Shown piece by piece: positions 56,377 to 60,339 of a stretch of DNA of 64,000 bases. Numbering within the stretch: position 1 is the stretch's first letter; each line of letters begins with the position of its first letter. The stretch covers positions 186,001 to 250,000 of the forward strand of contig JAXKVY010000001.1 in assembly GCA_036172455.1 (NCBI GenBank), given 5' to 3'. Source of the DNA: Candidatus Izemoplasma sp. (GTDB lineage: Bacteria > Bacillota_I > Bacilli_A > Izemoplasmatales > Izemoplasmataceae). Both the position numbers and the translations under genes were made by a program. Below the pieces are notes generated by a model. The model saw only the letters and a list, made by a program, of their open reading frames with translations, was not told the DNA's origin and ran no database searches.

Positions 56377-56429
56377 TTGTAAATTAACTTACCTTTTTGT
56401 ATACTAAACTGTTAAAGGTGTGTGAAAAA

Positions 56430-57476
56430 ATGAAAAAAGTATGTCTTTTAATAACAACTGTTTTACTGATTTTTCTATCAAGCTGTGCTTCAACTGAACA
56501 ACCAAATAATGAATCAAGTAAAATTGATGCTGTACAAGAGTCTTTATCAGTTTCTGATGAAGTGACACATCAAACGACGTTGCCAACCACAATTGATGGT
56601 GTGACGATTACTTGGCATTCAAATATTTCAGGAACACTTGATGATAATACATTTATCCAAGACGGTGTCGATCAAAATATTATGTTGACTGCTGTTCTAG
56701 AATATAATGACATAACACGTTACAAATACTTTGATGTCACAATCTTACTTGACCCTAATTTGGTTACCGTTCCCGATCCTGATGACACAGTATACTCTGG
56801 ATATTATGCTGGACTCGGTGAGGTTACTGATGATAATTTAAAACAATTCTTACATGATTTAATTGATGATCATATTGTCCTTGATTATGACGCATTATGG
56901 AATGCCTTAGCCAACAGTGATGAAGATCCTCTTAACCCAGACAATATCATCCTCTTCTATTCTGCTGAATCACGTAGTGAAGACTTGCATGGGGGCGATC
57001 AAGATGACTGGAATCGAGAACATGTCTGGCCTAAATCACATGGTAACTTTGATAATGATGATGTGATGGGTTCTGATATGCATCATATCCGTCCAACAGA
57101 TGTGAGCGTTAACGGGTACCGCGGTAATTTAGACTTTGATATCGGCGGTACGCTAGTGAACGAAACGACAGACTGTTTTAAAGATGGCGATAGTTTTGAA
57201 CCCAGAGATGAGGTCAAAGGTGACGTCGCGAGAATGATTTTTTATATGGCTGTCAGATATGAAGGCGATATTGCCCAAGAAATTGACCTTGAAGTAAATG
57301 ACCGGGTAAGTAATACTGGCCCATATGTTGGTAAACTTTCAATTTTATTAGCGTGGCATGAAGCAGACCCCGTCGATGCGTTTGAACGCAACCGAAATGA
57401 TGTAATTTTCTCATATCAAGGCAACCGTAATCCGTTTGTAGATTACCCCGAATTAGTCACACGTATTTTTAAATAA
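56430..57476 (+). CDS. Secreted endonuclease I lipoprotein with N-terminal Ig-like domain
   Basis: A 348-residue protein. Residues 1-19 are a lipoprotein signal with lipobox LSSC. Residues ~35-125 resemble an atrophied bacterial Ig-like domain (ITWHSNISGTLDD). Residues ~130-348 are an endonuclease I (His-Me finger) domain with NREHVWPKSHG and SDMHHIRPTDVSVN, the metal and catalytic His. It should degrade extracellular DNA at the cell surface. The ATG at 56430 follows AAAGGTGTG. Its original terminator is now split by the IS insertion downstream. Confidence 0.92.
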   Translation: MKKVCLLITTVLLIFLSSCASTEQPNNESSKIDAVQESLSVSDEVTHQTTLPTTIDGVTITWHSNISGTLDDNTFIQDGVDQNIMLTAVLEYNDITRYKYFDVTILLDPNLVTVPDPDDTVYSGYYAGLGEVTDDNLKQFLHDLIDDHIVLDYDALWNALANSDEDPLNPDNIILFYSAESRSEDLHGGDQDDWNREHVWPKSHGNFDNDDVMGSDMHHIRPTDVSVNGYRGNLDFDIGGTLVNETTDCFKDGDSFEPRDEVKGDVARMIFYMAVRYEGDIAQEIDLEVNDRVSNTGPYVGKLSILLAWHEADPVDAFERNRNDVIFSYQGNRNPFVDYPELVTRIFK

Positions 57477-57495
57477 AAAAGAATGATTGGTAAAG
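57472..57495 (+). repeat. 24-bp direct repeat, left copy (beside the IS)
   Basis: The 24 bp beginning AATAAAAAAGAATGATT and ending GGTAAAG recur exactly at 58611-58634. The copy is the 5' arm of the endonuclease gene's terminator and includes its stop codon. Confidence 0.85.
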
Positions 57496-58556
57496 TGAAG
57501 ATTTGTCAAACATGAGTTACACAATTGGCGTTACTGAAAGATACGGTATGCTAGAATAGACTTTGATAGATAGAATCCATAGAATTCTAGCGGGGATAGC
57601 CAATTGTGGGGAGACATGGGGAAGCTGTTATAGCTTCTTAAGTACTTTTGCCCTTCCCCCCTCAAGTCTTTCAGATTTATGAATGATCGATCCTGATAGA
57701 ATCGTTCATTGTCTTTGCGATGACTGCGCTCTACCTTGCCGTTGTGTCGGGGAGTGTAGGGCTTACAGTAATCATGCTTGATATTGTGTTGTTTGAGTGT
57801 ATTCTCAAATAGCGTCGGTTGCGGATCTATTGTATTCGCTAACCGGTTTGTGTATTCAAGTCCGTTGTCTGTTCGTACTTCCTGAATGGGAAAGGGGAAG
57901 TATTTGATGACACGCTTGAGGAACTCATTCGCACTATAGGTGGATTTATCCTCATAGAAGTAGATGTACCGTAGTCTCGTGAACTCATCAATGGCGGTAA
58001 ACTGATAGAGTTTTTGGCCATGGGGGAGACAGTGTGAGGGAACCTGTTTGGTATCGATTTGGAGTCGTTCACCAGGATAGGTCATCTGGACATACTTTTT
58101 CGGTTTATACTTTCGTTTCTTTTTCGGACTCATTTTCATATCGAGTCGTTTCATCACACGGTAGAGTGAAGATTGATGACGCGTGTAACCTCGCCTCATC
58201 AGTTTCACCCAGAAGGTGGTTAACCCATCTTTGGGATTGCGTCTTCGCATGTCCTTGATGAGTTTGATTTCCTTTGGTGTATGTTCGTTTGGATGATGGT
58301 GTGGTCTTCTCGATTGATCCATGAGTGAATCCATTGTTCCATCATACCGATTCATCCACCGATAGATGTATTGACGGTTCACCTTGTACCGTCTTGCGGC
58401 TTTCGTTACGGTATATCGAATCGCATATTTGATGAGTGATTGACGATATTTACATATTTGAAGATCTGTCTTCATGGCTTCATTCCTTTCTTTTGTCTTT
58501 AAAGAGAGGGGGAGGGAAAAGGTTCTTCCCAGGTTTCCATGTTTGACAAATCTTCA
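57496..58556 (-). mobile_element. IS481-like insertion sequence
   Basis: The ends are inverted repeats: AGTGAAGATTTGTCAAACATG at 57494-57514 is repeated exactly in reverse at 58538-58558 (21 bp; the TG...CA ends are 57496 and 58556). One transposase gene fills it on the minus strand. No short target duplication flanks the tips; instead a 24-bp direct repeat and a 54-bp inverted-repeat segment surround it. Confidence 0.88.
57531..58475 (-). CDS. IS481-family transposase
   Basis: A 314-residue DDE transposase with an N-terminal helix-turn-helix (VTKAARRYKVNRQYIYRWM) and an integrase core: Asp in LQIDTKQV, Asp in VRTDNGLEYT, Glu in NGKVERSHRKD. No frameshift, so it may be active. The composition is richer in G+C than nearby genes, consistent with transfer. 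Confidence 0.93.
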   Translation of the reverse strand: MKTDLQICKYRQSLIKYAIRYTVTKAARRYKVNRQYIYRWMNRYDGTMDSLMDQSRRPHHHPNEHTPKEIKLIKDMRRRNPKDGLTTFWVKLMRRGYTRHQSSLYRVMKRLDMKMSPKKKRKYKPKKYVQMTYPGERLQIDTKQVPSHCLPHGQKLYQFTAIDEFTRLRYIYFYEDKSTYSANEFLKRVIKYFPFPIQEVRTDNGLEYTNRLANTIDPQPTLFENTLKQHNIKHDYCKPYTPRHNGKVERSHRKDNERFYQDRSFINLKDLRGEGQKYLRSYNSFPMSPHNWLSPLEFYGFYLSKSILAYRIFQ

Positions 58557-58610
58557 CTGTGCGTTTACCTAATATGGATGATATGTCATAGATCTATTGT
58601 AAACGCACAG
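58557..58610. repeat. 54-bp element with 12-bp perfect terminal inverted repeats
   Basis: CTGTGCGTTTAC at 58557-58568 and GTAAACGCACAG at 58599-58610. It abuts the IS end on the left and the second 24-bp repeat on the right. Its origin is unclear. Confidence 0.8.
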
Positions 58611-58634
58611 AATAAAAAAGAATGATTGGTAAAG
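58611..58634 (+). repeat. 24-bp direct repeat, right copy
   Basis: Exact copy of 57472-57495. Here it is followed by the matching 3' arm of the terminator hairpin. Confidence 0.85.
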
Positions 58635-58659
58635 ATTCTTTACAAATCATTCTTTTTTT
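58614..58659 (+). terminator. Long terminator hairpin, formerly of the endonuclease I gene
   Basis: AAAAAAGAATGATT and AATCATTCTTTTTT pair; inside, GTAAAG pairs with CTTTAC around ATT. It is upstream of the nucleoside kinase gene and probably ended the endonuclease transcript before the insertion. Confidence 0.85.
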
Positions 58660-58698
58660 AATATAATAATAGGTCATACTTATGAAAGGAATGATGTT

Positions 58699-60339
58699 AT
58701 GTTCACAGTAACAATTAATGGAAAAAGTACGCATTACGATAGCCCGATACGCATCATTGACCTTATTGATGATAAGGAAATGAAATACCCTGTTGCTCGC
58801 GTTAATCATAGGCTTAGAGAACTACACTATCGCTTTGACTATGATGCAGAAGTTGAATTTTTAACGTTAGATCATCCGGAAGCCGTACATGTCTATGAAG
58901 CCTCATTAAGATATTTAATCGCTAAGGCATTTCATAACATCTATCCCGAGTATACTATTAAATTTAAATATAGTATCTCACGATCAACTTTTTGTTACAT
59001 TATGACAGAACCCCACGTCGATATTGCAAATGTTTTATTCAGTATACAAAAAGAGATGGATCGCGTCATTAACGAAAACTATACCTTAGAACGGATTACT
59101 GTACCAATTGAAGATGCCAAAACATTTTATAAAGAAAACGGCTATGATGATAGAGTCAAGATTTTAGAGTATCGTCCTGAGAAAACCGTTCATTTTTATC
59201 GTTGTCATGATTATCAAAATTACATGTATAGTTATATGGTGCCCTCTACTGGATACTTAAAACAATATAATTTAATTCCGTATGACATTGGTTTTTTGAT
59301 CCAATATCCTCGTGCTGAAACAAACACACAAATTCCTCCATTTAAAGATGCCCCGAAATATATCAAGACATTACGTGAGGCTTCAATATGGGCTGATGTC
59401 GTGACAGCCGACAATATTTATGATTTAAATAAACACGTGCATAATAATTATGTTGTTGATTTTGTGCATATGTGTGAAGCAAAACATAATGCGATGCTAA
59501 CTGAAATCGGTGATATCATTAAAGAACGTGAACACGAGATATCCCTTATTGCAATCGCAGGGCCTTCTTCGAGTGGAAAAACAACCTTCTCTAATCGTCT
59601 ACGTATTGAATTGATGACACGGGGAATCCGTCCTATTGCCATTAGTTTAGATGACTATTATCTAAACCGTGAAGACTTGATTGAGGATGAAAATGGGGCG
59701 GTTGATCTTGAGCATATCAACACATTAGATATTGCGTTATTCAATCGCAATATGCAAGAACTTATTCGTGGAAAAGAAACCAACATTCCTATTTTCGACT
59801 TTAAAGTAAAAAAACGGGTCGGCTATAGAACCTTAAAAATCACCGATGATACACCAATCATTATTGAAGGTATTCATGCCTTAAATGCGCAGCTCACGCA
59901 AAACATTCCAGACTACAAAATGTTTAAAATCTTTATAAGTCCTCAAATTCAATTGAATCTTGATCACCACAATCCAATCAGCATTACTGATTTACGCTTA
60001 ATAAGACGTATCGTACGCGACAAGAAGTTCCGTAACGCAGCAGCAGCCAGAACCCTAGCGATGTGGGATAGTGTAAGACAAGGCGAATTCCGATGGATTT
60101 ACCCAAATCAAGAACATGCTGATTATGTCTATAACTCAGGACTTCAATATGAATTAAACGTATTAAAAAAATATGCTTTACCAACGCTTCGTGAAATTCC
60201 GAATGATAGTGAGTTCTATATTACTGCAAATCGCTTAATTAAATTTATGAAATACTTTGTTGATATCGATGATTATCATGTTCCAAACAACAGCTTATTA
60301 CGCGAATTTATTGGTGGCAGCATCTTTGTAGAAGACTAA
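58699..60339 (+). CDS. TGS-domain nucleoside (uridine-like) kinase
   Basis: The 546-residue protein has an N-terminal TGS-like domain (~1-60), a threonyl-tRNA-synthetase-like second domain (~65-250, HVYEASLRYLIAKAF) and a C-terminal P-loop kinase (~280-500) with AGPSSSGKTT and SLDDYYLNRED, like uridine kinase/phosphoribulokinase. Related proteins in Firmicutes are annotated as nucleoside kinases; substrate is not certain. AAAGGA is the ribosome site. Confidence 0.88.
   Translation: MFTVTINGKSTHYDSPIRIIDLIDDKEMKYPVARVNHRLRELHYRFDYDAEVEFLTLDHPEAVHVYEASLRYLIAKAFHNIYPEYTIKFKYSISRSTFCYIMTEPHVDIANVLFSIQKEMDRVINENYTLERITVPIEDAKTFYKENGYDDRVKILEYRPEKTVHFYRCHDYQNYMYSYMVPSTGYLKQYNLIPYDIGFLIQYPRAETNTQIPPFKDAPKYIKTLREASIWADVVTADNIYDLNKHVHNNYVVDFVHMCEAKHNAMLTEIGDIIKEREHEISLIAIAGPSSSGKTTFSNRLRIELMTRGIRPIAISLDDYYLNREDLIEDENGAVDLEHINTLDIALFNRNMQELIRGKETNIPIFDFKVKKRVGYRTLKITDDTPIIIEGIHALNAQLTQNIPDYKMFKIFISPQIQLNLDHHNPISITDLRLIRRIVRDKKFRNAAAARTLAMWDSVRQGEFRWIYPNQEHADYVYNSGLQYELNVLKKYALPTLREIPNDSEFYITANRLIKFMKYFVDIDDYHVPNNSLLREFIGGSIFVED

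Follow-up and report, generated by a model that had tools for sequence, protein, structure and literature searches.

Within the window analysed here, a stretch of 64,000 nucleotides of a Candidatus Izemoplasma sp. genome, an IS481-like transposase gene lies amid directly abutting repeats, which raises two questions: is this one mobile element or two, and what brought it to this site? The initial annotation had described an insertion sequence (IS) and a separate 54-bp palindromic element, enclosed together by 24-bp repeats. The parts of that description are indeed present. The transposase gene at 57531-58475 is the single IS481-type transposase gene at the site, with IS481 as its best family match, and the two exact 24-bp copies (57472-57495 and 58611-58634), the 21-bp perfect inverted repeat (57494-57514 and 58538-58558), the palindrome (58557-58610) and a 22-bp AT-rich stem (58614-58658) were all confirmed in place. 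An exact 24-bp repeat with an IS between its copies excludes a chance match. The features of the locus, as assigned in this study, are as follows.

56397-57476, plus strand: endonuclease I family gene (PF04231), left neighbour.
57471-57495: 25-bp target duplication, R-side copy, matching the L-side copy at 24/25 positions.
57496-58609, minus strand: the complete IS, a member of an IS481-like clade, 1114 bp long with the palindrome and with TG...CA ends; its limits were set from relatives and from the target duplication.
57496-57514: right end R of the IS, with an outward-reading TTGACA 8 bp from the tip.
57531-58475, minus strand: DDE transposase gene, 314 aa (NCBIfam IS481, 223.7 bits; Pfam rve; D, D and E motifs).
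58538-58556: R', an inner repeat of R that agrees with the outer R over all 19 bp.
58557: single base separating L' from R' (1-bp spacer), a G when read on the transposase strand.
58558-58568: L', the outermost 11 bp of L repeated internally in inverted orientation.
58575-58609: true left end L of the IS, with an inward-reading TACAAT 8 bp from the tip.
58610-58634: L-side copy of the target duplication.
58614-58658: AT-rich, terminator-like stem-loop with a 22-bp stem, left arm duplicated, overlapping the -35 box; not detected by a simple terminator scan.
58639-58667, plus strand: target promoter of the kinase gene (TTTACA at 58639-58644, 17 bp, TATAAT at 58662-58667).
58699-60339, plus strand: uridine kinase/phosphoribulokinase-like gene (PF00485), right neighbour, adjoining the target promoter.

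The palindrome proved to be part of the IS. The window IS is single-copy in its genome (1.69 Mb in 10 contigs), where a search for other copies found none, and copies and their flanks were read in relatives instead. The nearest named relative, L010 from a Candidatus Izimaplasma metagenome-assembled genome (JAIPGE010000062.1), encodes a transposase 81% identical to that of the window and carries the same palindrome at the same place in an IS at a different locus. In the sister genome G003, from the same genus as the window, all 11 left ends of a relative IS (11 copies, 72% identical over the part seen) begin with TGTGCATTTACAATAG..., followed by the inverted tip, a G and the inner right-end copy, one copy having TATGC. 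Moreover, the outer half of the supposed 54-bp element aligns with the left ends of other relatives. Because relatives carry the palindrome at the same place and their left ends align, the IS spans 57496-58609. Two events, an IS plus a separate palindromic element, are suggested by the perfect 21-bp inverted repeats of the inner segment, but this reading is practically negligible given the position of the palindrome in L010 and in 11/11 G003 copies, and given that neither a short form of the IS among the 24 right-end sequences of G003 (11 inner, all adjoining L', and 13 outer) nor a solo palindrome in the window's genome was found. The relative IS is present at least 11 times in G003 (loci L069-L116), and its copies break the assembly of that genome, contigs ending inside the IS.

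The order L, L', G, R', transposase, R was found in nine elements, with G as the spacer in 9/9. Within elements, L and L' are identical at 98/99 positions (nine distinct elements, with G003 included and L015 excluded as a near copy of L011) and R and R' at 120/120 positions (eight elements with known R), and in both pairs the sequences differ between elements. Random reassignment of partners reached the observed identity in 2 and 5 of 20,000 trials, figures that are optimistic as the elements are related. In a tree of 42 transposases, all elements with the L'-G-R' arrangement fall in a single clade (15 rows, support 93/95), 13 rows of which show it, three of these being the same contigs from two collections; the remaining two rows are L036, whose contig starts within the gene, and L038, with an unrecognisable left end and a stop in its gene. 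In the BRZ sub-clade, the L-L' stretch reaches 185-200 bp and folds as an extended covarying hairpin of 51 pairs (95.8% paired, 13 changed on both sides, 0/500 shuffles, seven sequences). The left ends of the BRZ elements from Bacilli (L013, L014, L018, L011, L035, L024 and L086) share a conserved stretch around CTCGGCATA. No match to a known RNA in Rfam was obtained for the left ends of four loci.

The function of the inner copy was considered against this background. A promoter formed by L'-R' is not favoured, the -10 half being lost in most elements. The arrangement might be a non-functional fossil that persists through descent alone, such as the product of an inversion within a tandem dimer, as its confinement to one clade would allow and as an inversion of the R-L dimer junction would plausibly generate. 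We regard this as doubtful, since L with L' and R with R' match within elements at 218/219 positions while differing between elements, and continuing constraint or conversion is therefore needed. As a tentative alternative to the fossil, L'-R' may be a self-regulatory site, possibly one bound by the transposase.

The second objection to a simple insertion was the length of the direct repeat, which had been judged too long for a target duplication of this family. The judgement holds against the IS481 family, for which Kojima and Bao (PMC10045372) give 2-15 bp in prokaryotes, with 24-29 bp for part of IS1202, but it fails for the clade of the window IS. The duplications at 22 targets measured 24 bp (one target), 25 bp (three), 26 bp (12), 27 bp (five, among them G003_L078, perhaps over-called through the TG of the left end) and 28 bp (one). 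In G003, a partner among the right flanks was recognised for 9/11 left flanks by a shared run of 25-27 bases. Across 26 loci, a duplication of at least 24 bp was found in nine, and at the other 17 the contig ends cut it or an exact repeat of that length is absent, as in L020 with 13 bp. The window duplication, 25 bp with one mismatch, is of normal length for the clade. Since the palindrome belongs to the IS and the duplication length is normal, the order of events that the initial annotation had left open reduces to a single insertion.

What these sites have in common became visible when the 22 targets (the discovery set, window site included) were aligned on the right-end joint with no prior motif model. 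Position -6 is A in 20/22, position -5 is A in 17 and position -7 is C in 12, and a second conserved block lies near -28. Read on the opposite strand, the motif is TTGACA-N17-TATAAT with a TG before the -10 box, starting 4 bp outside the duplication. All promoters in this study are predicted consensus matches, and most insertions come from draft or metagenome-assembled genomes. In the window, the left end of the IS faces the promoter of the kinase gene, the -35 box starting 4 bp from the duplication and the ATG lying at 58699.

Flanks were scored by the best promoter-like match within 100 bp of the left end, reading away from the IS. This match lay 27-33 bp from the left end in 15/22 discovery flanks and in 18/23 flanks of a first unused set, for which chance gives about 1.6. 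Under a stricter test (28-32 bp, score of at least 9.5), 27/45 left flanks were positive; the corresponding counts averaged 0.5 over 17 other intervals of these flanks, never exceeding 2, and 0.7 in resampled flanks, never exceeding 3. The extended -10 TG, which was left unscored, is present in 19/33 sites scoring at least 8.5, and an alignment without score selection also recovers the -35 box, the TG and the -10 box. A second unused set came from a left-end pattern search in 16 whole genomes holding earlier loci, which gave 49 places; 17 were dropped (14 already used, two with short flanks, one duplicate), leaving 32 new flanks, some of them one-mismatch pattern matches that may not be IS ends. 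The best score fell at 28-32 bp in 20/32 (1.6 expected), and 21/32 reached 9.5, with the TG in 13/21, against a mean of 0.82 and a maximum of 2 in other intervals.

The left-side motif is missing in 7/22 discovery flanks, 5/23 of the first and 12/32 of the second unused set, and some of these cases are explained by promoters on the other side. Right-hand flanks show a small excess of promoter matches (5/26), and in L014, L017, L024 and L027 a right-side promoter stands at the same distance where the left-side one is absent. For the 23 elements with both sides read (two-way ties counted; L047, whose left side is not a best match, is not among them), the best score at 28-32 bp was on the left in 17, on the right only in four and on neither side in two (L011 and L033), so that 21/23 have a promoter on either side. 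An outward open reading frame (ORF) follows within 400 bp in 36/42. These data support well that these elements target promoters, and suggest that the window IS and its relatives find their landing sites through the signal for transcription start. A literature search of open-licence papers found no promoter-targeting IS in print. Inward-reading promoter-like scores over the 45 left flanks rise weakly to a mean of 6.02 some 83 bp away from the left end, possibly by chance or from divergent promoters. Terminators were also considered as targets, 4/22 sites lying within 5 bp of a terminator-like hairpin compared with 3.5% of control positions; promoters explain this weak excess better.

IS1202-type elements with long duplications gave a second view of the same question. 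For this group, Harmer et al. did not find a conserved target (PMC10132070). We took 39 loci with an IS1202-type transposase from Bacilli, and in 20 of them a direct repeat of 14-40 bp brackets a segment of 1250-1850 bp; joints were placed at the nearest TG/CA within 2 bp, so that single-base shifts are possible. The best promoter-like match begins -2 to +1 bp from the right joint in 15/20 (0.8 expected), the motif is missing in 5/20, and the other side gave 0/20. This phasing holds for duplications of both 16-17 and 26-30 bp; the sole 33-bp case, L194, is doubtful. In genome G188, the same IS1202-like element made duplications of 16 bp (L201) and of 27, 27 and 28 bp (L173, L197 and L200), and in all four copies the -35 box stands at the right joint, 0 or 1 bp off. 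Therefore, the promoter fixes the position of the right joint, and the left one shifts by about one helical turn. Near-random insertion with survival only between genes near promoters would suit the finding that most targets of the window clade lie outside ORFs (5/22 overlap an ORF of at least 80 aa), but it is very improbable, as it cannot fix the best match at one distance in 18/23 and 20/32 unused flanks or phase the promoter to the R joint for two duplication classes.

IS1202-type elements were also seen upstream of cfr(D) on Enterococcus plasmids (L210, NZ_OQ298926.1; L211; L212). In L210, TTTACT-17-TAAAAT with a TG was read by eye ~26 bp from the left end. No duplication was found for the IS1202-like copies on Enterococcus plasmids, which were excluded from the count.

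The ends of the window clade carry promoter halves of their own. In 26/28 elements, TTGACA (at most one mismatch) stands exactly 8 bp inside R and TATAAT (at most one mismatch) exactly 8 bp inside L, the L-end box being mostly TACAAT; L027 and L035 are the exceptions to this layout. A 1-bp spacer, as in L'-G-R', would yield a predicted circle-junction promoter with 17-bp spacing that reads into the transposase gene. In the copy-out-paste-in IS3, IS30 and IS21 families, the circle-junction promoter is assembled from a -35 box in R and a -10 box in L. The predicted junction promoter of the window clade has the same layout, the circle itself being a prediction here, whereas an inverted copy of the junction inside the element sets the clade apart from these families. 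We propose that the element may move as a circle whose joined ends (R-1 bp-L) would form a strong promoter, TTGACA-N17-TACAAT, for the transposase gene, and that the internal L'-G-R' would mimic this junction just upstream of that gene.

In target coordinates, the joints lie 4 bp and ~30 bp upstream of the -35 box, or ~-40 and ~-66 from the transcription start. Most insertions turn their left end towards the promoter, and a minority their right end. The two joint positions fit the stretch that the alpha C-terminal domains of RNA polymerase contact. The transposase may thus locate its site via a promoter-bound protein, most likely the RNA polymerase holoenzyme (sigma region 4 or the alpha C-terminal domains), in parallel to the contact with XerC at dif sites put forward for ISAjo2. 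The 26-bp duplication would then be the upstream stretch between the two strand joints. With this stretch duplicated, the host promoter would retain its native upstream DNA, and the insertion would be mild because that DNA is preserved.

A polymerase or another promoter-bound protein is the receptor towards which we lean slightly, because a transposase that reads only naked DNA close to its joints would not be expected to demand a -10 box and a TG some 50-60 bp away from the far joint, whereas holoenzyme bound at the promoter would. Alternatively, the transposase itself might read TTGACA-N17-TATAAT without RNA polymerase, perhaps as its own circle junction shares this layout. Indeed, the predicted junction has TTGACA-N17-TACAAT or a near match in 26/28 elements, and the protein family would already sit on such sequences. 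Direct reading nevertheless seems unlikely: over 50 bp separate the -10 box from the far strand joint, the left ends of the window IS and of the BRZ elements lack the target TG (19/33) at the corresponding position, and the variation of the motif resembles that of host promoters. We return to the holoenzyme as the landing pad. On its extension to a whole branch of the IS481/IS1202 group, with one joint anchored where the -35 box begins on its upstream side and the other one to three helical turns further up, we are evenly divided; a second joint one, two or three turns up would explain duplication lengths of about 5, 16 and 26 bp. Taken together, the window very probably carries one complete IS with a junction copy in its left end and a duplication in the 24-28 bp range, phased to sigma-70-type promoters, to which we would add the receptor and the circle by inference.

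As for family placement, the window transposase matches NF033577 (IS481) with 223.7 bits (cut-off 224, E 3.4e-66), by far its best family match. Like IS481 members, it is a single DDE transposase of about 310 aa with the catalytic motifs and an rve domain, and the IS ends in inverted repeats that open with TG (TG...CA), L and R matching imperfectly. The clade differs from the IS481 family in its 24-28 bp duplications at 22 targets, in place of 2-15 bp, in its internal L'-R' junction and in its promoter targeting. Membership of IS1202 was rejected: NF033594 gave 45.2 bits against a cut-off of 250, the protein has 314 aa compared with 394-507 aa for IS1202 transposases (PMC10132070), and the residue seven positions after the catalytic E is N, not the Q of IS1202, most relatives having N or Q. 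The clade shares with the long-duplication group of IS1202 (16-28 bp) its long duplications, 16-17 and 26-30 bp in the elements examined here, and promoter targeting. The -35 box lies at the R joint in the IS1202-type elements, whereas it lies 4 bp from the R joint in the window clade.

Targeting of dif/Xer sites through the 54-bp palindrome was dropped, the palindrome having proved to be the left end. Siguier et al. reportedly dealt in 2023 with IS1202 and XerCD sites. The ISAjo2 group of IS1202, the dif/pdif hunters, resembles the window clade in inserting at a fixed distance from a protein-bound site in one orientation, but its target is dif and its duplications are 5 bp, whereas the window clade has promoters and 24-28 bp; contact with XerC at dif sites is the proposal of the authors. 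The IS481EU elements of parabasalids likewise combine an IS481-type transposase with duplications of about 4, 15 or 25 bp, but they are eukaryotic, and promoter targeting is not reported in the available part of their description (PMC10045372).

Searches beyond these genomes added few relatives. Viral contigs gave none, a pattern search there producing one chance match inside a gene, and the window transposase had no match in plasmids at 1e-40. Two unannotated phage records hold relatives of the window transposase. With the L019 transposase as the query, the plasmid collection gave four further, more distant records, one of which was retrieved and left out of the analysis, and the window's phylum gave four matching genomes, all already in the sample.

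At the window locus, the insertion was thought to have split a terminator and to affect both neighbours. The terminator appeared split because the kinase promoter overlaps the stem-loop after the endonuclease gene, and that gene has indeed been cut off by the IS from the stem-loop downstream. On the kinase gene, the effect is probably small, because the insertion ends 4 bp before the -35 box and leaves the promoter whole. No empty site of the window insertion was found, and G003 is without the endonuclease gene at this locus (L068).

The promoter target answers, for the elements tested, the question of the missing target raised by the IS1202 survey (PMC10132070). It also makes testable the question of long duplications in IS481EU, for the origin of which the authors had no clue (PMC10045372). 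If correct, these transposons would be guided by the transcription machinery, which would be a rarity in bacteria, and insertion maps of such elements would mark promoters in uncultured bacteria. Such elements could insert ahead of host genes, among them resistance genes, without shutting them off, and would thereby be a bacterial counterpart of the retrotransposons that settle upstream of RNA polymerase III genes and leave promoters unbroken.
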